Shown: positions 11,056 through 19,909 of the stretch, in pieces
How the letters are laid out: every line of letters starts with the position of its first letter
Position numbering within the stretch: position 1 is the first letter of the stretch
Origin: Chloroflexota bacterium
Lineage (GTDB): Bacteria > Chloroflexota > Chloroflexia > Chloroflexales > Roseiflexaceae
Assembly: GCA_013388755.1 (NCBI GenBank)
Contig: JACAEQ010000073.1
Coordinates: 1-42,382 of the forward strand
DNA: 42,382 nt
Direction of reading: 5' to 3'
Program-made: the position numbers and the translations under genes
Notes under the pieces: model-generated
What the model was told of the DNA's origin: nothing
Databases searched by the model: none
The model's input: the letters and a program-made list of their open reading frames with translations, nothing else

Positions 11056-13785
11056 TTAACGGCCAATGATCGGCAGCGTCACGCGATAGACCTGGCCTGA
11101 TGGCCGTATGCTGGTAGCCGGGCCATAACGATTGACACGGCCGGTTGTTTCGAGCTCTTCCAGCCAGTAGGTATAGACACCTCCGGGCTGTGCCGTCATA
11201 TCGCGCCATTCATAGACCGCGCCACTATCGGGCCGTCCTAGCGCGCGAATCAGTGCCGGCGTCACCACGGTTGCGTCATTCAGGCTGCCGGTTGTGCTGC
11301 GCAACAGCCGGAACCCTGCGGTATTCACCTCCAGCGCGGTTGCCCAGCGCACCATCAGCGCCTCACCTTCCCAGCCCGCCATGAAACGTTCCAGTACGAC
11401 GGCTGACGGAACCGCCTGGAAGAAGCCAAAGTCGTAGGTATGATTGTTTGACCCTGCGGTAGCCAGGTTATCGTACGGGATCACATACACGGCATGATTG
11501 CCAACCGCCGTACCGTCCGAGTCGCGGCTATCACCGTTGGGGCTGCCATCGCCATTGCTGACGGTCAGGATCAGGTTGGCCAGGCCAGGCTGTTGCTGGT
11601 CACCGGTAATATTGGGGATGCGCACCTCATACTCGGAAGCGCCGCCTGCAACGCCCGTACCCGTCCGGATGCCAATACCGCCGTCATTGATAATATTGTC
11701 ATTCGGATCACTATCCGTGAGCGCCGTACCACTGCGGAAATAATACTCGCCATTTGCATCGGTGATTGCCACACCGATGCGCACACCGTTGCGGTAGAGT
11801 TCAACGATGATACCTGGGATTGGTGGTTCACCCGGATCTTGCACGCCATTATTGTTTGCATCAATCCAGACCCGGTTGCCAATTTCGATCGGGGCCTGGT
11901 CGCAGAGCAACTCAAGATCGCCGAGGCCATTGGCCTTACCGAAGCTGCCGGCAGTGACCTGGTAGCCACGCACACGAGTTCCACTGGCATTGCTCATCTG
12001 GATCGTACCCGACGTAAACAGCGTGCCGGTGGGATCGAATGCCGTCGCGGTCACCTCGGCAAAACGTTGCGCGTGCGCAAGGCCACCGAGCGTCAGTTCA
12101 TCGTGAAAGCCCGGCAGATTGTCGCCAACGTAGAACTCGCCGCCGCCGGGACCCTGGTTATTGTTGGCGCCTGCCGTGGGGCCGAAAATGCCGGCGGGAA
12201 CCGACTGCGAATTGCTCTCGATCGTCCAGCCGCCGGTACCATTGGGGCCGGCGCGCAACACATCGCCGGCAGGCATGGCATTCAGATTGGCGCCACCCGG
12301 CGGCGTTTCCGTCGGGCCGGGATCGTCACCGCCGATCTGATCGGCGAACCGATCGCGGAAACTGAGGATCATGGCGTTTCCATCGAAGACGATATCCGTC
12401 AGCATGGGCTGCGGAAACGCGCCAAAACCATCGGCATACGGCCCGGCAGGAAGCGTGTCGGTCCAGGGACGCCACTCAGCCGGCAGGCAGCCACCGGGAG
12501 GCGGGAAGGGTGGCGATGGATAGCCGGGCGCGAAAATATCGGCACAGCCACGGTCGTAGTTCAGCGGGAACTGCAGCACTGGCACCGCGCTGAACGCCGC
12601 CGTCGCTGGATTATAGCCATACACATACGCCTGCAGATCGCTCGCCGTCCCGCCATTCTCAGCCGTACACACACCACCAACATACACCAGGCCATTGTTC
12701 ACACCGAGACCGAACGGCCGGCCCACGCCGTTAACACAGCCAGGATCGGGCACGACGCCACGCGAAACAGCCGTTTGCGTTGCGATCGTAATCTCATACA
12801 GTGAACGGTTGGCCAGATTCACCACCCACAGGGTGCGATCATCCTCAGAAACATCGAGGTCGCCAAGGCTGACCCGGCCGACCGCCGGGTAGGCGCCAGC
12901 ATCAAAATCGCCATCACCGTTAGAAAACGATAAATCAGTGTGCGGATTCACGCCGGTGGTCGTAGGGCCAAAAATATCGTCCAGGTCAATAAACGGCGTG
13001 CCATCAGGTACACCGTTGACGGTGACACGGTAAATCGTTCCCGTGCCATCGGATGTCGGCAGGCCACTGCCGGGCCCAAAACTGGCCGCGCGCTTGGTAA
13101 AGGCAGCAGCAAACAGCGAGTTTGTCGATCGCTGGTACGCCAGCCCCCAGATAGCGCCGGTCTGTGAGGCGAGCGCCTCCTGCTGCGGAGGCGGAGTTGT
13201 GCCGCTATCGGTATAGTTAAACGTGTACATCGTCGGCAGGCTCGACGTAGCGGCTGGCCCCGGCTGGAGACAGGTAAGCGACAGTTGCGGGTTCGCCTGG
13301 CAATACTCCGCCGGATTATGCAGCGCAAAGTCGACGTTCGCTGAATTGCCGTCGGGAACGAACTGGACGCTTGTATTATTGCCGGGACCCTGGACGCCGG
13401 GGCGCAGGTATGCCGGCCAGCCCGTAAACTCGACACGGTACGGTCCGGTGCCGCCGGCATTGAGCGTGTAGGCGCCAGGCGCGGGCGTATTCACCGCAGT
13501 GCAGGCCGCAATCGGATTTCCCGGGCCAAGGCAGAGCGTATCGAAACTGGTCGCCGTGCCTGCGGCAGCGCCATTCGCATCGTATGCGGTGACGGTTACG
13601 CCGCCGACGCCGGTCTCATTTGCATCACGCTGGCCATTGTTGTTGTTGTCCCGATAGACAACGCCACTGATGATCCCGGCGGCCCGAACGGACGGCATAG
13701 GCTGGGTCATGACGACCAGAACGCCAAATATCGTTCCAATCATCAGCGCCAGCGAGAGCCGGTAGGTCAGAGGCAAACGTATCAT
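11056..13785 (-). CDS. Large secreted protein with SdrD-B-like domains
   Basis: This 909-residue protein has a signal peptide (membrane segment about residues 8-27, cleavage near VRA-AG). An SdrD-B/Cna-B-type repeat follows at once (VVYRDNNNNGQRDANETGVG), with a second such repeat near residues 640-720 (NRVWIDANNNGVQDPGEPP). Asp/Asn-rich DxNxNGxxDxxE loops of this kind bind calcium. The middle part (about 180-630) has propeller-like segments with many Gly/Pro/Asn and several cysteines, and no domain I can name. The end carries an FN3-like module (VRWATALEVNTAGFRLLRS) and closes with RVTLPIIGR, an end often seen on secreted Chloroflexota proteins. It probably sits on the cell surface. It follows the di-heme peroxidase gene by 59 bp, likely as part of one transcript. 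Confidence 0.85.
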   Translation of the reverse strand: MIRLPLTYRLSLALMIGTIFGVLVVMTQPMPSVRAAGIISGVVYRDNNNNGQRDANETGVGGVTVTAYDANGAAAGTATSFDTLCLGPGNPIAACTAVNTPAPGAYTLNAGGTGPYRVEFTGWPAYLRPGVQGPGNNTSVQFVPDGNSANVDFALHNPAEYCQANPQLSLTCLQPGPAATSSLPTMYTFNYTDSGTTPPPQQEALASQTGAIWGLAYQRSTNSLFAAAFTKRAASFGPGSGLPTSDGTGTIYRVTVNGVPDGTPFIDLDDIFGPTTTGVNPHTDLSFSNGDGDFDAGAYPAVGRVSLGDLDVSEDDRTLWVVNLANRSLYEITIATQTAVSRGVVPDPGCVNGVGRPFGLGVNNGLVYVGGVCTAENGGTASDLQAYVYGYNPATAAFSAVPVLQFPLNYDRGCADIFAPGYPSPPFPPPGGCLPAEWRPWTDTLPAGPYADGFGAFPQPMLTDIVFDGNAMILSFRDRFADQIGGDDPGPTETPPGGANLNAMPAGDVLRAGPNGTGGWTIESNSQSVPAGIFGPTAGANNNQGPGGGEFYVGDNLPGFHDELTLGGLAHAQRFAEVTATAFDPTGTLFTSGTIQMSNASGTRVRGYQVTAGSFGKANGLGDLELLCDQAPIEIGNRVWIDANNNGVQDPGEPPIPGIIVELYRNGVRIGVAITDANGEYYFRSGTALTDSDPNDNIINDGGIGIRTGTGVAGGASEYEVRIPNITGDQQQPGLANLILTVSNGDGSPNGDSRDSDGTAVGNHAVYVIPYDNLATAGSNNHTYDFGFFQAVPSAVVLERFMAGWEGEALMVRWATALEVNTAGFRLLRSTTGSLNDATVVTPALIRALGRPDSGAVYEWRDMTAQPGGVYTYWLEELETTGRVNRYGPATSIRPSGQVYRVTLPIIGR

Positions 13786-13844: not shown

Positions 13845-14936
13845 CTACTCCGGCGCTGCAAATGGATCGGCAAACTCGGGCGCGCGCAGGGCGCGTTCAT
13901 CCGTCAGAGCGTGAAGAAACGCGATCAGATCACGGCGTTCGTCATCGCTCAGAACAAAACCGGCGACGAGCGGGTGGCGCGCCGCCAGTCGCTCCGGCTC
14001 TGCTCCTGCGCCCGCCCGCCCACCGGACTCGTAAAATCGCACAACCGCGTCGAGCGTCGGCAGGCTGCCATCGTGCATATAGGGCGCGGTAACCGCAACA
14101 TTGCGCAACGGCGGGACACGGAAGCGGTAAGCGTCCGACGGATCGCCGGTTATCTGCGCCAGGCCACGATCGGCGCTGCGACCGGCCCCCGTTGCCAGAT
14201 ATGCCAGATCCGACCAGCGTGGTGGCGTCGCACGATCCGGCGGTACAATATCCACATGGCAACGCCCACAAGCGAGGCCAGGCGAAAAGAAGAGTGCCAT
14301 ACCACGTCTGGCTTCCGGCGTCATCGCATCGTCGTCCCCCTGATAGACAGCGCGATCGTAGGGAGTATCGCGCGCCGAAAGCGAACCGGCAAACGCGGCA
14401 AGCGCCTCAATGACGCGCGGCCAGGCGACAGGGTCAGCGTCGGCGGGAAACGCGGCAGCGAAGCGCGGCGGGTAGGCCGGGTCGGCGCGGAGCCGCTCAA
14501 GGATGGCACGTTCATTGCCGGCAGCGCCCATCTCAGGCGGCTGTGTTGCGAACAGGGCGTGCGCCACCTGCTGCGCCAGGCGGGTGCGCGCCGGATCGGC
14601 CCAGGTCAGCGCCGGCAGTTCAGCACTGTTGAACAACCCCGGAGCATTACGCGGCAACGGCATGCCCGTAACTCCAACGGGCGTCGCATGGCCGTCACTG
14701 AACCCGAGCTCCTGACGATGACACGATGCACACGCGATGTGTTCATTTGCCGAAAGCCGCGGATCATAGAATAACCAGCGTCCCAGGTCGATCATGGCAT
14801 GTGTCGCATCATCGGACCCGGGCACATCGTGGCTGGCGGGAGTGTGCCGTTGCGAATGCATGATCACGCTCGAAGCCACAGTGATGATAACCGCGCCAAG
14901 TACTGGCATCAAGCCCCATCTGGGTATAATACGCAT
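13845..14936 (-). CDS. Di-heme cytochrome c peroxidase / MauG-family protein
   Basis: This 363-residue membrane-anchored protein carries two c-type heme sites, CASCH (about residues 69-73) and CGRCH (about 223-227), plus the APYMHDGSL segment (about 285-293) that supplies a distal ligand in this family. The bacterial di-heme peroxidase domain order is intact (LGRWLFYDPRLSANEHIACASCH, then PLPRNAPGLFN). Members reduce hydrogen peroxide or, like MauG, carry out oxidative modification of partner proteins outside the membrane. One N-terminal membrane segment (residues 10-26) points to anchorage at the outer face. The ATG at 14936 is a choice of length and hydrophobicity; no clear ribosome site is visible, so the longer start at 15008 is not excluded. 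It opens the run leading to the Sdr protein, reductase and MFS genes. Confidence 0.9.
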   Translation of the reverse strand: MRIIPRWGLMPVLGAVIITVASSVIMHSQRHTPASHDVPGSDDATHAMIDLGRWLFYDPRLSANEHIACASCHRQELGFSDGHATPVGVTGMPLPRNAPGLFNSAELPALTWADPARTRLAQQVAHALFATQPPEMGAAGNERAILERLRADPAYPPRFAAAFPADADPVAWPRVIEALAAFAGSLSARDTPYDRAVYQGDDDAMTPEARRGMALFFSPGLACGRCHVDIVPPDRATPPRWSDLAYLATGAGRSADRGLAQITGDPSDAYRFRVPPLRNVAVTAPYMHDGSLPTLDAVVRFYESGGRAGAGAEPERLAARHPLVAGFVLSDDERRDLIAFLHALTDERALRAPEFADPFAAPE

Positions 14937-15032
14937 GCGTCGGTATGCACCACGAACACTATCGTCACGGACAGGTCTGGCCACCCCGCTGGCGGCACAG
15001 TACAACACAGATGGACGGATGCTGGTCGTACT

Positions 15033-15061: not shown

Positions 15062-15202
15062 TCAGCAAAACTGTCAGAATGGCAGCCGGCTCTATGACAG
15101 GATAGGCATCTATGACATTTGAGGCAGCCACAGGCCTGCAACCTCTCGCCTGGAGCCTGTGATCTCACCTGGCAGTGTAGTCGTAGCGAGAAAGGATCAC
15201 TC

Positions 15203-15589
15203 ATGCAACTCGAGCATGTCGCACTGAACGTTCCCGAACCGGACGCAATGGCGCAATGGTATGTCACACACCTGGAGATGCAGATCGTGCGCCACATTCC
15301 GGCGCCAAACCCGACGTACTTCCTCGCGGACTCGGCAAGGCGCAGTGTGCTTGAGATCTACCGCAACCCGGCCGCCCCCATCCCCGACTATGCCGCGATC
15401 CCATCGCTGGCGTTACACCTGGCGTTCAACACGAACGACATCGAAGCCGACATAGCGCGACTCGTCGCGGCAGGCGCCACGCACGCCGGCCCGGTTGAAA
15501 CCACCCCTGCTGGCGATCGATTGACCTTCCTGCGTGATCCCTGGCAGGTGACCATCCAGCTGGCACAACGACGCACACCGCTCGTATGA
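15203..15589 (+). CDS. VOC-family (glyoxalase/bleomycin-resistance fold) protein
   Basis: This 128-residue protein has the vicinal-oxygen-chelate fold: it starts MQLEHVALNVPEPDAMAQWY, the classic first strand-helix with a metal-site His at residue 4, and ends with DPWQVTIQLAQR, where such proteins place a Glu or Gln metal ligand. The middle shows LALHLAFNTNDIEADIARL, the start of the second beta-alpha-beta-beta-beta unit with another His. Family members are lyases, dioxygenases, isomerases or binding proteins; substrate unknown. Start chosen at 15203 because of AAAGGA upstream and family alignment. A dispersed repeat begins only a few bases after the stop, and the hydroxyacid dehydrogenase gene follows in the same direction after 196 bp. 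Confidence 0.87.
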   Translation: MQLEHVALNVPEPDAMAQWYVTHLEMQIVRHIPAPNPTYFLADSARRSVLEIYRNPAAPIPDYAAIPSLALHLAFNTNDIEADIARLVAAGATHAGPVETTPAGDRLTFLRDPWQVTIQLAQRRTPLV

Positions 15590-15596
15590 TACGAGT

Positions 15597-15676
15597 GATA
15601 CCAGGTAGCCGTCGATCGTCCACGATGACAGCACTCTGAAAAGCCATGCCGTGGCGTAGCGAAGGGGGCATGCCGT
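15597..15676 (+). repeat. Dispersed gene-end repeat, copy 1
   Basis: About 80 bp beginning GATACCAGG and ending in a GTAGCGAAGGGGGCA block. A second copy at 31813-31891 keeps GATACCAGG, TCGATCGTCC, a GATGAC/AATGAC core, CTGA and GTAGCGAAGGG in the same order. Both copies start at or within a few bases of the stop codon of a plus-strand oxidoreductase-type gene and run in the same direction. Confidence 0.75.
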
Positions 15677-15785
15677 TGCTACTGCCAGGTGTGTGTCCGC
15701 ATGCAACCGGGTATGACGCGGTGGCGCAAGTCGTTCCCAGGACGACCGCGCATCATCTGTTCAGCAAGAGAAAGGCCTGCACGCA

Positions 15786-16802
15786 ATGAAACCGAAGGTG
15801 CTGCTCGACCCGCATGGCCGGCAGATGGCGACTATCTTCGCCGACGAGGATATGCAGCGGCTCCACCAGGTCGCCGAGGTGCTCTGGGCGCGCGATGAGC
15901 CGATGCCGGCGGCAGAGATCGAACGAATTCGTAACGATATCTCGTACATTGTCACGGGGTACTGGCGCCACGGAGATATCGCCACTTTTCCCGGATTGCG
16001 CGCCGTGCTGGAAGTCAGCGGTGGCTTCCCATCGCCGCACGACCTCGATTACGCCACCTGCTTCGCACGCGGGATTCGCGTCCTTAGCTGCGCACCCGCA
16101 TTCGGGCCGGCCGTCGCCGAGATGGGGCTGGGGCTGGCCATCGCATGTGCGCGCCAGATCGCCTGGACCGACGCGGCGTTTCGGAGTGGCGAACCGAACT
16201 GGAGTCACACCGCTTTTACAACCGAGATTGGCGATACGTTCACCCTGTATGGCAAACAGGTCGGCTTCATCGGTTTCGGCGGGCTGGCGCGCGCGCTCAG
16301 GCCGTTGCTCGCACCCTTCCATTGCCCGATCCAGGTGTACGATCCCTGGTTGACGGACACCTACCTGCGCCGGCAGGGAGTGTCCCCGGTCGATCTGGAG
16401 ACACTGCTCGCAACTTCACGCATTACATTCGTCCTTGCCGTGCCCAGCGCCTCAAACCGGGCATTGTTGACCCGTGAAAAGCTGGCATTGATCCCTTCCG
16501 ACGCGGTATTCGTGCTGTTGAGCCGCTCCCATGTGGTTGACTTTGATGTGCTAACAGAGGTACTGGCGCGGGGAGCGTTTCGCGCCGGCATTGATGTGTT
16601 CCCTGAGGAGCCGCTGCCACGGCATCACCCGATCCGGCGCGTCAGACATGCCGTGCTTTCATCACACCGCGCTGGCGCCATCAGTGAAGCGTTGCTGGCC
16701 ATCGGGCGGCTGGTCGTCGATGATCTCGAGGCGCTCTGCAATGGCCTTCCGCCACAGCAGATGCAGGTCGCACAGCCAGAATACATCCGGTTGCGCGGCT
16801 GA
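15786..16802 (+). CDS. D-isomer-specific 2-hydroxyacid dehydrogenase family protein
   Basis: This 338-residue protein belongs to the NAD-binding D-2-hydroxyacid dehydrogenases, which interconvert 2-oxo acids and D-2-hydroxy acids. The nucleotide-binding segment is GKQVGFIGFGGLARALRPLL, followed at the end of the next strand by an Asp (VYDPW), as expected for NAD. The catalytic Arg can be placed in LLSRSHVVDFDVL, the Glu in DVFPEEPLP and the His in LSSHRAGAI. Two details deviate from the usual pattern: the third Gly of the dinucleotide loop is Ala, and the usual ARG motif is SRS. It is a phosphoglycerate-dehydrogenase-like member of unknown substrate. The start is supported by GAGAAAGG. The product might act with the VOC protein upstream; this is only an inference from position. 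Confidence 0.88.
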   Translation: MKPKVLLDPHGRQMATIFADEDMQRLHQVAEVLWARDEPMPAAEIERIRNDISYIVTGYWRHGDIATFPGLRAVLEVSGGFPSPHDLDYATCFARGIRVLSCAPAFGPAVAEMGLGLAIACARQIAWTDAAFRSGEPNWSHTAFTTEIGDTFTLYGKQVGFIGFGGLARALRPLLAPFHCPIQVYDPWLTDTYLRRQGVSPVDLETLLATSRITFVLAVPSASNRALLTREKLALIPSDAVFVLLSRSHVVDFDVLTEVLARGAFRAGIDVFPEEPLPRHHPIRRVRHAVLSSHRAGAISEALLAIGRLVVDDLEALCNGLPPQQMQVAQPEYIRLRG

Positions 16803-17066: not shown

Positions 17067-18119
17067 CTACGGCGCACCACCGGGGAACGGAACCCACGAA
17101 TCGCGCTCAGCATCATAGCCATAGCGTAGCGTCACCTGTTGCTGTTCGGAGACGGCGCGCAGGTTAAACGCAAACGGCACCACAAATAGAGTCATATTGG
17201 TCTGGTCGAAGCCGATCCGCCGCACCCGCGGCTCGCCGAAATTGATCGCCGCTTCGTTGAGCGTCAGGTCGCTGCGAAATGACCCGACGGCATGTCCTGC
17301 AGCATCGAGCGCCACCGAGCCAACCTCGGCACTGCGCGCCATGCCGATATAGAGCCGCTTTTCGGCGCGGCCGCGGAAGATCGCCAGACCGATTGCATCA
17401 ATTCCCAGCACTTCGTCACTTATCTCTTTACTCGCCAGGTCGATTCGCAGCACGCGTCCCTGTTCGGAGAGGCGGGTCGAACCGGCGACCGTACTGACAT
17501 ACAGGGCGTGCGTGTCACAATCATAGGTCATTCCCAGAATGCCGAAAGGATTCTCGCTGGAACCCGCCGGCACGCCCGGCAAGGTCACAAACGGCTGCAA
17601 CTCGGCCGTATCGCTATCGATCCGATACACCACATTCAGGCTGCCCGGCGGGTTGTCGCTCACGGCAGTGCGCGGTACCGCCGCCGTGTAAATGTTCCCA
17701 TCCCGATCGAGCACGAATGGCCCGAGTGTGCCGGCATCGTCCCACGACGGCTCCTGATGAATGTCACGCATCGCCGGGTCGGCCGTTACCGGAACGCGCC
17801 CGTCGAAGATCACCAGCCCGCTGTACTGGCGTTCACCAGTGCCGATGCCCAGCCGATTCGCATATCCCAGTTGCCGGGCAAACCGCGGTATACCGCGACA
17901 TCCGGTCACACTGCCCATGGCTCCCGCAACTGGCGTGGGAACAGGCAAATTGGCCGGCGCACCTGACGTGCCATTGGCCAGCCACCAGCCCAGGCCGAGG
18001 GCGCCGACCAGCAGGACGGCACCCAGCGCCAGCAGGGCAGCGCGCCACGCTGGCGGTGCCGGCGGAACAGGCGCCGGCGGGCGTGCACCGCGGGGCGCAT
18101 GCTTGCGACGCTTGCTCAC
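17067..18119 (-). CDS. Membrane-anchored beta-propeller-like protein of unknown function
   Basis: I do not recognise a named family. The 350-residue product starts (GTG) MSKRRKHAPRGARPP, a basic cytoplasmic tail, followed by a Pro-rich stretch and one membrane span (about residues 27-49, ending in GLGWWLA). The external part has repeated strand patterns typical of six- or seven-bladed propellers such as SMP-30/NHL proteins: GPFVLDRDGNIYTAAVPR, VVYRIDSDTAELQPFV, GILGMTYDCDTHALYVSTV, GRVLRIDLASKEI. The GTG start at 18119 is well supported: it overlaps the TGA of the upstream lipoprotein gene as GTGA, with AGGGGCGGG just upstream. The longer ATG frame would overlap by 46 bases. Coupling to the amine-oxidase-like lipoprotein suggests that the two work together at the outer face of the membrane. 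Confidence 0.7.
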   Translation of the reverse strand: MSKRRKHAPRGARPPAPVPPAPPAWRAALLALGAVLLVGALGLGWWLANGTSGAPANLPVPTPVAGAMGSVTGCRGIPRFARQLGYANRLGIGTGERQYSGLVIFDGRVPVTADPAMRDIHQEPSWDDAGTLGPFVLDRDGNIYTAAVPRTAVSDNPPGSLNVVYRIDSDTAELQPFVTLPGVPAGSSENPFGILGMTYDCDTHALYVSTVAGSTRLSEQGRVLRIDLASKEISDEVLGIDAIGLAIFRGRAEKRLYIGMARSAEVGSVALDAAGHAVGSFRSDLTLNEAAINFGEPRVRRIGFDQTNMTLFVVPFAFNLRAVSEQQQVTLRYGYDAERDSWVPFPGGAP

Positions 18120-19909
18120 TGGCCCGCCCCTGACGGCACGAACAACGGCCCGGCGGCGCATGGCCAGACCCGCGGTTCAAAGACGCCATCTTGCAGAATC
18201 GAATCGGCCCAACAATATTCGGCTCCCGGTACATCCGAGTTCTGTAACTGTGGCACGTACCAGATCACAAGTGGCCCTTCACCAAGCGATTCAGGCGGGG
18301 TGAGGAAACGTTCCGGCCCTTGCCGCTCGTCGGCGTTGCAACAGTCGCCGAGGGTCGGCAGATCACTCTCGCCCTCATCGCGATCCGCCCCACCGCGTAC
18401 CGCGTAAAGATACGCATGATCGCCGCGCCCGCCATCACCGAACTGTCCGCGCCCGGGCGCGATGTACCAGCCACGCCCATCACGATTGGTCAGACGATAC
18501 TGATATCCTTCCGGTGTGTATGCGGTCGTCTCGCGCTGCACCTGCCAGCCTTCGACATCCCAGGAACGCCACGCCGTTCCGTCCCACTCGGCGAAGCGCT
18601 GTTGTTCGCCGGCCATTGCGATGCGCATGACCGGGCGATACGTGCCATTGTTACCGCAACCTCGCCCTTCGCTGATGAATACGACGCGGAAACTACCATC
18701 CTGGTAGAACTCGTAGCGCTGGCGATATGCATAGTTGCACGGCGTCGGCCAGAACTCGCTGCGGAACCGCTGCACCAGAGCAAACCCCTCGACGTCGCGT
18801 GTCGAACGAACCGGTTCAATCTGCGGGCCATCCCAGGCAACCACCGCCGCCGCTGAGAAAGCCGGGCAACCAAGCGCATCACTATAGCCAAAACCTTCCT
18901 GCTGCGAATAGTTGATGTGGACATCAACCAGTTTGGCACTACGCACGACGGGGACAGCAGAGAACTGCACATCTTCGATACGCAGGCCATCAGTGCTGGT
19001 CAGGATGTAGCGCAGCGACCACCCGTCACGGCTCAACTCCGTCGCCTGGTTGCAGTAGCGCGCCGTCACCACATCGTCCTGCAGGCGCTGTTCCGTCACT
19101 GGCCGGCGGCTTGACGCGCCCAGATCGGTCCAGCGCAGGCCAATGATTGTGTACTCAACAAGATCGACAATCACCCACAGCGCACGCTCGCCCCAGACGA
19201 AGATTGGCGCGACGCACAGGTGGCGTGAACGTTCGCAGGCTGTCGCCTGGAACTGCACCTTCATCTGCGGCTGCTGGATCATCGTCTGATCGGGCGTGAG
19301 GCCGAGTTCAGCGCGGACCTCAGGCGCCGCCAGGGCGATCTGTGCCGCCAGATCCATCAAGTGCCGTGGCACAATCGTTGGCTGGGTATCATCGAGCACC
19401 GTAACATCATAGACACGCTTCGCCTGTGGATCGGCAATCGCCAGCACGCTGCGATTCTCAGCGTAATTGTAGATCTCGACCCGGTAACATGCACGGCCAC
19501 GGCACGCCTCACCCACCCCGGCAGCATCCGCAGGACCGAGAGGATACACGCCGAACACCTCAGCGCGCAATGGTCGCCCATCACTGGCGGCGAGCGCCTG
19601 GCGCACGCGGGCATCTTCGACGGCCAGTTGTTGTGCCACCTGCCGTTCCTCGGCCAGCCCATCGAGCAGGAGCACTGGAACGGTACCCGCAAGGGCTCGT
19701 TCGACCTGTGCCCGGCGCTCGGCCAGCAACGGCGCAAGCTCCGGCGCCGGGGTACTACGCGCGGCAAGTCGCCCTGGATCAGCCGGCGGCGTAATCGGAC
19801 GAACTACCGGCGTACGACCGGCCAGAGTTGCTGTCGGCGGGGGGGGAGCCGGCTGCCCGCACGCAACAACAAGCAAGATCACCAGGAACGACAGTACGCC
19901 AGTTCGCAT
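18116..19909 (-). CDS. Lipoprotein related to copper amine oxidases, copper ligands missing
   Basis: A 597-residue lipoprotein (MRTGVLSFLVILLVVACG; lipobox Cys at about residue 17). From about residue 290 it follows the catalytic domain of copper amine oxidases: GWSLRYILTSTDGLRIEDV matches their reading WxFRxxxDxREGLxLxDV, YSDALGCPAFSA matches LGCDCLG, and TPCNYAYRQRYEFYQDGS (about 389-406) matches the TxxNY(D/E)Y...FYQDG segment that carries the topaquinone tyrosine. LVIWYVPQ near 547 matches the terminal VVWYxxGxxHxPRPEDWP segment. The paired HxH and the late His that bind copper are not seen, and the position of the catalytic Asp appears to be Gln. It may thus be a non-enzymatic relative. 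The assignment is from remembered family motifs, without alignment. It is coupled (GTGA) to the propeller-like gene downstream. Confidence 0.6.
   Translation of the reverse strand: MRTGVLSFLVILLVVACGQPAPPPPTATLAGRTPVVRPITPPADPGRLAARSTPAPELAPLLAERRAQVERALAGTVPVLLLDGLAEERQVAQQLAVEDARVRQALAASDGRPLRAEVFGVYPLGPADAAGVGEACRGRACYRVEIYNYAENRSVLAIADPQAKRVYDVTVLDDTQPTIVPRHLMDLAAQIALAAPEVRAELGLTPDQTMIQQPQMKVQFQATACERSRHLCVAPIFVWGERALWVIVDLVEYTIIGLRWTDLGASSRRPVTEQRLQDDVVTARYCNQATELSRDGWSLRYILTSTDGLRIEDVQFSAVPVVRSAKLVDVHINYSQQEGFGYSDALGCPAFSAAAVVAWDGPQIEPVRSTRDVEGFALVQRFRSEFWPTPCNYAYRQRYEFYQDGSFRVVFISEGRGCGNNGTYRPVMRIAMAGEQQRFAEWDGTAWRSWDVEGWQVQRETTAYTPEGYQYRLTNRDGRGWYIAPGRGQFGDGGRGDHAYLYAVRGGADRDEGESDLPTLGDCCNADERQGPERFLTPPESLGEGPLVIWYVPQLQNSDVPGAEYCWADSILQDGVFEPRVWPCAAGPLFVPSGAGQ

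Follow-up and report, generated by a model that had tools for sequence, protein, structure and literature searches.

A conserved gene locus around a lipoprotein with a copper amine oxidase fold and a replaced copper site in Chloroflexota and Bacteroidota

Introduction

Copper amine oxidases (CAOs) are the textbook example of a self-made cofactor that depends on copper. In the CAOs studied, the formation of topaquinone requires a copper site of three histidines, which we take to be H431, H433 and H592 in the Arthrobacter numbering, and the catalytic aspartate lies about 14 residues past the active-site tyrosine. In the diheme enzymes of the MauG/MbnH family a tyrosine axial ligand replaces the methionine of the peroxidases, and the usual partner of MbnH is MbnP. 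MauG oxidises two tryptophans of methylamine dehydrogenase, making TTQ (PMC6405878). Other diheme genes are co-transcribed with those of CorA and MopE, whose tryptophan becomes kynurenine, a conversion for which the diheme proteins have been suggested as catalysts (PMC3912023).

The stretch of DNA analysed here, called the window (42,382 nucleotides), encodes a lipoprotein that an earlier note, made from the sequence alone, had related to the amine oxidases. Compared with the CAOs (PF01179; AGAO 1avk, ECAO, PPLO and VAP-1), this protein is predicted to share the fold of the N2, N3 and catalytic domains, the tyrosine at the topaquinone position, the active-site tyrosine and, probably, the catalytic aspartate. 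In contrast to them, it has all three copper histidines replaced, with an identity of about 13%, and it is a lipoprotein with conserved cysteine pairs whose gene is linked to propeller, SdrD_B and diheme genes. As in the MauG/methylamine dehydrogenase system, a diheme CCP_MauG enzyme is encoded near a would-be quinone carrier and a propeller protein is found nearby; the candidate target here would be a tyrosine in a CAO fold, whereas there it is tryptophan in MauA. The MbnH/MbnP, SACCP-MopE and CorB-CorA pairs are similar in that a diheme enzyme adjoins a secreted protein, the diheme gene of the window being nearest to the MbnH family. They differ from the locus described here, where the partner has a CAO fold, MbnP is absent from most of the genomes and no copper-acquisition genes were recognised.

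Another secreted CAO relative of Chloroflexota is the two-gene small CAO of Herpetosiphon and a relative (L061-L065), in which one gene encodes an N2/N3-like protein (about 265-317 aa) and its neighbour a catalytic protein (398-404 aa) reading AYNY at the topaquinone motif. Unlike the window protein, its catalytic protein retains the HxH and the third histidine, being copper-type by sequence.

Our search of the open-access literature (subscription journals lay outside its scope) found no description of this CAO-fold family devoid of the copper site. This branch is widespread, and its gene context was likewise not found described; what is new here is the conserved gene locus in which the CAO-fold gene occurs with those of a propeller, an SdrD_B protein and a diheme enzyme.

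Results

The CAO-fold gene lies on the minus strand, from an ATG at 19909 to a stop codon at 18118-18116, and encodes 597 aa. The lipoprotein signal reported in the earlier note was confirmed as the lipobox LVVAC, which ends at Cys17. The dN/dS between Roseiflexus-type orthologues was 0.10-0.13; the gene is therefore under purifying selection and not decaying. The Roseiflexus orthologue of genome G330 (L002:1492-3273; also L069) bears a single in-frame TAA, which reflects either recent pseudogenisation or an error in the assembly. The features of the locus are shown in Table 1.

Table 1. Features of the CAO-fold gene and its linked genes in the window
Feature	Positions	Strand	Basis or conservation
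CAO-fold lipoprotein (P0001), 597 aa	18116..19909	-	sequence, Pfam, AlphaFold2 model, Foldseek
Lipobox VVAC (Cys17)	19859..19870	-	sequence; relatives have a lipobox or a Sec-type signal
Tyr334, position of the active-site Tyr in the CAO VPYGD segment	18908..18910	-	93/93; profile alignments
Asp344, candidate catalytic base	18878..18880	-	93/93; register against the CAO Asp not fixed
TPCNYAY, residues 389-395, topaquinone-motif position	18725..18745	-	alignment with the CAO motif NY[DE]Y
Tyr393, position of the topaquinone-forming Tyr of CAOs	18731..18733	-	93/93
Gly422-x-Tyr424, where CAOs have the copper-binding HxH	18638..18646	-	register from conserved R429
Cys523-Cys524 pair	18338..18343	-	91/91 where present; missing with C348 in cytochrome c fused relatives
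Asn557, where CAOs have the third copper His	18239..18241	-	seven residues past W550, as in CAOs
Membrane-anchored (N-terminal) beta-propeller; probable GTG start overlapping the CAO-fold stop (GTGA)	17067..18119	-	sequence, alignment, AlphaFold2
Diheme cytochrome c enzyme of the MauG/MbnH type (387 aa; two CxxCH motifs; Tyr326 as candidate axial ligand)	13845..15008	-	PF03150, TIGR04039, 6e1c
F4, large secreted SdrD_B-domain protein whose central region is family-specific	11056..13785	-	PF17210 4e-23

The Pfam model PF01179 matched the window protein with an E-value of 2e-4 and 20.8 bits, below the 27-bit cut-off, which some sister Roseiflexus-type proteins exceeded once neighbouring stretches were added; the NCBIfam primary-amine oxidase model matched residues 142-238 (E 0.017). 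When solved structures were searched by sequence, with either P0001 or a 75-sequence profile, just weak or chance matches were obtained (diamine oxidase, E about 1) and a fold comparison was therefore required. The AlphaFold2 model, built with 75 sequences, had a pLDDT of 82.6 and a pTM of 0.76. Among the matches listed, the best one in Foldseek was the Arthrobacter CAO 2cwt (E 3.4e-19) and the best one in the structure comparison was 1avk (Z 22.5, rmsd 5.1 Å over 428 residues), where the superposition spanned residues 86-597 of the model and 17-618 of the Arthrobacter CAO. Since the matches listed by both fold searches (50 each) were all CAOs and scored highly, the likeness to amine oxidases exceeds chance, and the model indicates a CAO fold across the N2, N3 and catalytic domains (residues 85-597). 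The amine oxidase relationship proposed in the earlier note was thus corroborated by the PF01179 match and both structural scores; a structure prediction devoid of the CAO fold had been named there as its refutation, and the fold was present. Its restriction to the C-terminal half did not hold, because the model matches N2 and N3 as well as the catalytic domain.

Conservation was counted in an alignment of 93 family members, in which 34 of the 597 columns were fully identical. For the register against the CAOs, we used an HHalign alignment (probability 36% at best), which served for this purpose alone and was cross-checked by HMMER. Both profile methods aligned Tyr334 with the tyrosine of the VPYGD segment, N392-Y393 with the topaquinone motif and W550 with the DVVVW segment of the CAOs. 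Y334, D344, C391, Y393, Y395 and Y424 were invariant, so the tyrosine at the topaquinone position is kept, as had been claimed. The motif described as TPCNYAY was found at residues 389-395, although its threonine is not shared by the family as a whole (T389 in 16/93); the family motif reads W-P-x-[PA]-C-N-Y-x-Y, where the position corresponding to D/E of the NY[DE]Y of the CAOs is occupied by A, S, N or R and the tyrosine is invariant.

With the profile alignments and R429 as anchors, H431, H433 and H592 correspond to G422 (kept in 86/93), Y424 and N557 (Asn in about 95% of the sequences). Neither an HxH nor a late histidine was seen in the window protein, and the same replacement was found across the 93 sequences, bearing out the loss of the three copper histidines. 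Histidines at shifted positions, which were to speak against this loss, were looked for in the same alignment: His230 and His331 were about 97% conserved and neither one aligned to a copper-ligand position. By its defining metal site, the window protein is not a copper amine oxidase, though it has a CAO fold.

The conservation of Tyr424 and Asn557 exactly at metal-ligand positions, together with the retention of Tyr393 and of a candidate aspartate, would be consistent with an amine oxidase having a different metal site (Tyr424, Asn557, Asp or Cys) and a self-made topaquinone. Nevertheless, we consider this very unlikely, given the three-histidine copper site required by the CAOs studied and the lack of a Cys/His cluster there; disulfides best account for the conserved cysteines.

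The catalytic aspartate had been said to read Gln; this was not sustained, because the invariant D344 is available. The claimed residue was probably Q336, set against the aspartate of PYGD. D344 lies 10 residues past Tyr334, and judging by the alignment the catalytic aspartate is probably present as D344, which is a better candidate than the position of Q336.

The window protein has twelve conserved cysteines. C136 and C141 were jointly lost in 34/93 members; C348, C523 and C524 were jointly lost in the cytochrome c fused relatives described below, which have a new cysteine near C286. This pattern of joint loss suggests disulfides 136-141, 225-232 and 566-584, plus two formed via C523/C524, and by inference C391 and C418 would remain, paired close to the tyrosine.

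Of 400 Chloroflexota genomes searched by profile, 33 gave a match at E 0.01, substantial in 29. At least 215 family loci were confirmed by a contig scan, and 80 of these 215 were kept. The kept loci belong to Chloroflexota, including Herpetosiphon isolates, to Bacteroidota and to a small number of bins with the labels Acidobacteria, Burkholderiales and Thiotrichaceae, where the members from the last two lie on short contigs. The Bacteroidota members, about 42-48% identical to the window protein, are Chitinophagales and include the isolates Sediminibacterium salmoneum and Sediminibacterium sp. C3. Two divergent relatives with 24-25% identity, L028:1264-3507 (+) and L029:826-3042 (-), carry a C-terminal cytochrome c domain; an alignment that included these fusions was too divergent for the contig scan. 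The fusions have neither propeller nor diheme neighbours and some of the cysteines are missing. Both are flanked by a CoaBC-like and an SmpB-like gene, with corrinoid and methyltransferase-like genes nearby (names by sequence inspection).

Neighbouring genes were counted in the 64 loci with enough flank. The propeller gene was the commonest neighbour (55/64), localised directly downstream of the CAO-fold gene or, for the Sediminibacterium group, immediately upstream of the diheme gene. Its product gave an AlphaFold2 model with a pLDDT of 85, and its best matches among those listed were YncE, lactonases and related propellers. The identity of the propeller as the heavy subunit of methylamine dehydrogenase was considered and not supported: in this the locus differs from that of methylamine dehydrogenase, no such chain appearing among the 50 matches listed. 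Between the propeller and diheme genes, the window holds VOC-type and 2-hydroxyacid dehydrogenase-type genes on the plus strand (15119-16802; names by sequence inspection).

The gene for F4 is close to the CAO-fold gene in Roseiflexus, Herpetosiphon, Bacteroidota and an Acidobacteria bin, and the central region of the protein (aa 151-620) has homologues in the last three of these groups. In Herpetosiphon aurantiacus (L205) the F4 family protein reaches about 3,000 aa, with conservation beyond the SdrD_B domains. F4 could be the substrate of the module or its surface anchor. The conserved locus consists of the CAO-fold gene and the genes of the membrane-anchored propeller and the secreted SdrD_B protein, plus that of the diheme enzyme in Chloroflexales and Bacteroidota.

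The diheme protein of the window has a CCP_MauG domain with two CxxCH motifs. It matched PF03150 (8e-39) and the MbnH model TIGR04039 (1.9e-94, 316 bits, under the cut-off of 363, which one Bacteroidota copy exceeded with 377 bits), and its closest PDB entry was the diheme enzyme 6e1c (4e-67). By alignment to MbnH, the candidate axial ligand at position 326 is at the expected place and was Tyr in 38 of 42 sequences and Phe in four. The diheme gene was found directly upstream of the CAO-fold gene in 35 Bacteroidota loci (within 75 bases in 32 of them). In Roseiflexus-type loci it lies downstream, at a distance of about 2-3 kb and in the same orientation; in several Chloroflexaceae it adjoins the CAO-fold gene, as it does in genome G309, there on the downstream side. 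The 5.08 Mb window genome has a single TIGR04039 match, and the CAO-fold gene is about 3.1 kb away from it. TIGR04039 was present in 22/29 genomes positive for the CAO-fold gene and in 3/16 negative ones, counts that are not independent because the genomes are related.

The linked diheme proteins fell into at least three clades, with Chloroflexaceae, Roseiflexus and Bacteroidota apart and G309 alone on a long branch (the deep branches being weak). This suggests repeated pairing of the CAO-fold gene with different diheme clades; mapped on the CAO-fold tree, the linkage takes four changes.

A diheme partner in all members of the family was considered and rejected. Six Herpetosiphon genomes with the CAO-fold gene had no PF03150 gene at all, and most Anaerolineae lacked a linked diheme gene (64 loci with flank), the large Anaerolineae diheme proteins examined being unlinked and fused to a repeat region that resembles a parallel beta-helix. 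The only residue specific to diheme-linked lineages was L517, which is uninformative. Because no residue tracks the linkage, and in view of the Herpetosiphon and Anaerolineae loci, the diheme partner is not obligatory. Chloroflexota proteins of this kind (L198-L203; diheme CCP_MauG, about 740-775 aa, unlinked to the CAO-fold gene) have a C-terminal half with the look of a parallel beta-helix.

MbnP (TIGR04052) had no match in the window genome or in the Roseiflexus genomes, and none over the cut-off in the seven Bacteroidota genomes tested; it was present in 3/5 genomes with a high-scoring separate MbnH. The affinity of the linked diheme enzymes to the MbnH family, and the pairing of diheme genes with copper-binding kynurenine proteins (PMC3912023), would agree with a metal-binding surface protein like MopE, CorA or MbnP, in which the diheme enzyme makes kynurenine or a similar ligand and metal is sequestered with no catalysis. 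We regard this as improbable, since the family has just two nearly invariant histidines, neither at a CAO metal position, and no linked-specific residue.

Discussion

The structure prediction, the alignments and the gene neighbourhoods may be read in terms of an active protein. By analogy with MauG and with the diheme genes of CorA and MopE, we tentatively propose, as a possibility that falls well short of probable, that the CAO-fold lipoprotein without copper keeps its tyrosine for modification by the diheme enzyme into a copper-independent cofactor, forming a surface redox module. An extracytoplasmic, lipid-anchored branch of the CAO fold would have exchanged the copper site for Gly, Tyr and Asn while keeping the reactive tyrosine and its neighbours. 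The diheme enzyme and H2O2 would oxidise a residue of this protein; Tyr393 would be the first choice, and the invariant Trp297, Trp550 or Tyr424 would be alternative targets. A protein-derived cofactor would thus be made without copper, and the mature protein might oxidise an amine, perhaps lysine side chains of the secreted partner or a small amine, passing the electrons to a c-type cytochrome instead of O2. Cytochrome c as acceptor is hinted at by the sequences of the two distant fusions. The more specific form of this proposal, a copper-free CAO-fold quinoprotein with a tyrosine cofactor installed by the MauG/MbnH-type enzyme and electrons going to cytochrome c, seems to us rather unlikely.

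The absence of linked-specific residues, some of which might be expected in a modification target, speaks against such modification, and the diheme enzyme might act on the propeller or F4 instead. Since Herpetosiphon has the family and no diheme enzyme, a pseudoenzyme or scaffold, itself short of probable, is nearly as likely as the proposed cofactor: the CAO fold would serve as an external binding module in an assembly with the propeller and the SdrD_B protein, the tyrosine and the cysteines would be structural, and the diheme enzyme would act elsewhere or detoxify peroxide. The loss of the copper ligands agrees with this, and so do the missing linked-specific residues, the conserved cysteine pairs, which suggest a stable extracellular protein, and the persistence of the propeller and F4 where the diheme gene is missing, as in the Herpetosiphon loci seen. 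However, Y334, Y393, Y395 and D344 are invariant at about 45% overall identity, seemingly beyond structural need, and the repeated pairing with different diheme clades and the existence of cytochrome c fusions also argue against a mere scaffold.

The earlier note had left a pseudoenzyme, a protein using another metal or a structural protein as options; the amine-oxidase kinship, the absent ligands and the kept tyrosine behind them were upheld, and the loss of the catalytic aspartate was not. Because of the strict conservation of the tyrosine site, a dN/dS of about 0.1 and the repeated diheme linkage, an active, copper-independent redox protein is no less likely than a dead one.

The family makes the copper-free formation of topaquinone-like cofactors testable in cultured bacteria, and the likely targets of the MauG/MbnH family would be extended to a new fold. 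If the proposed modification of the tyrosine is true, it would represent another route to a protein quinone, on a fold where copper-dependent self-processing was thought to be essential.
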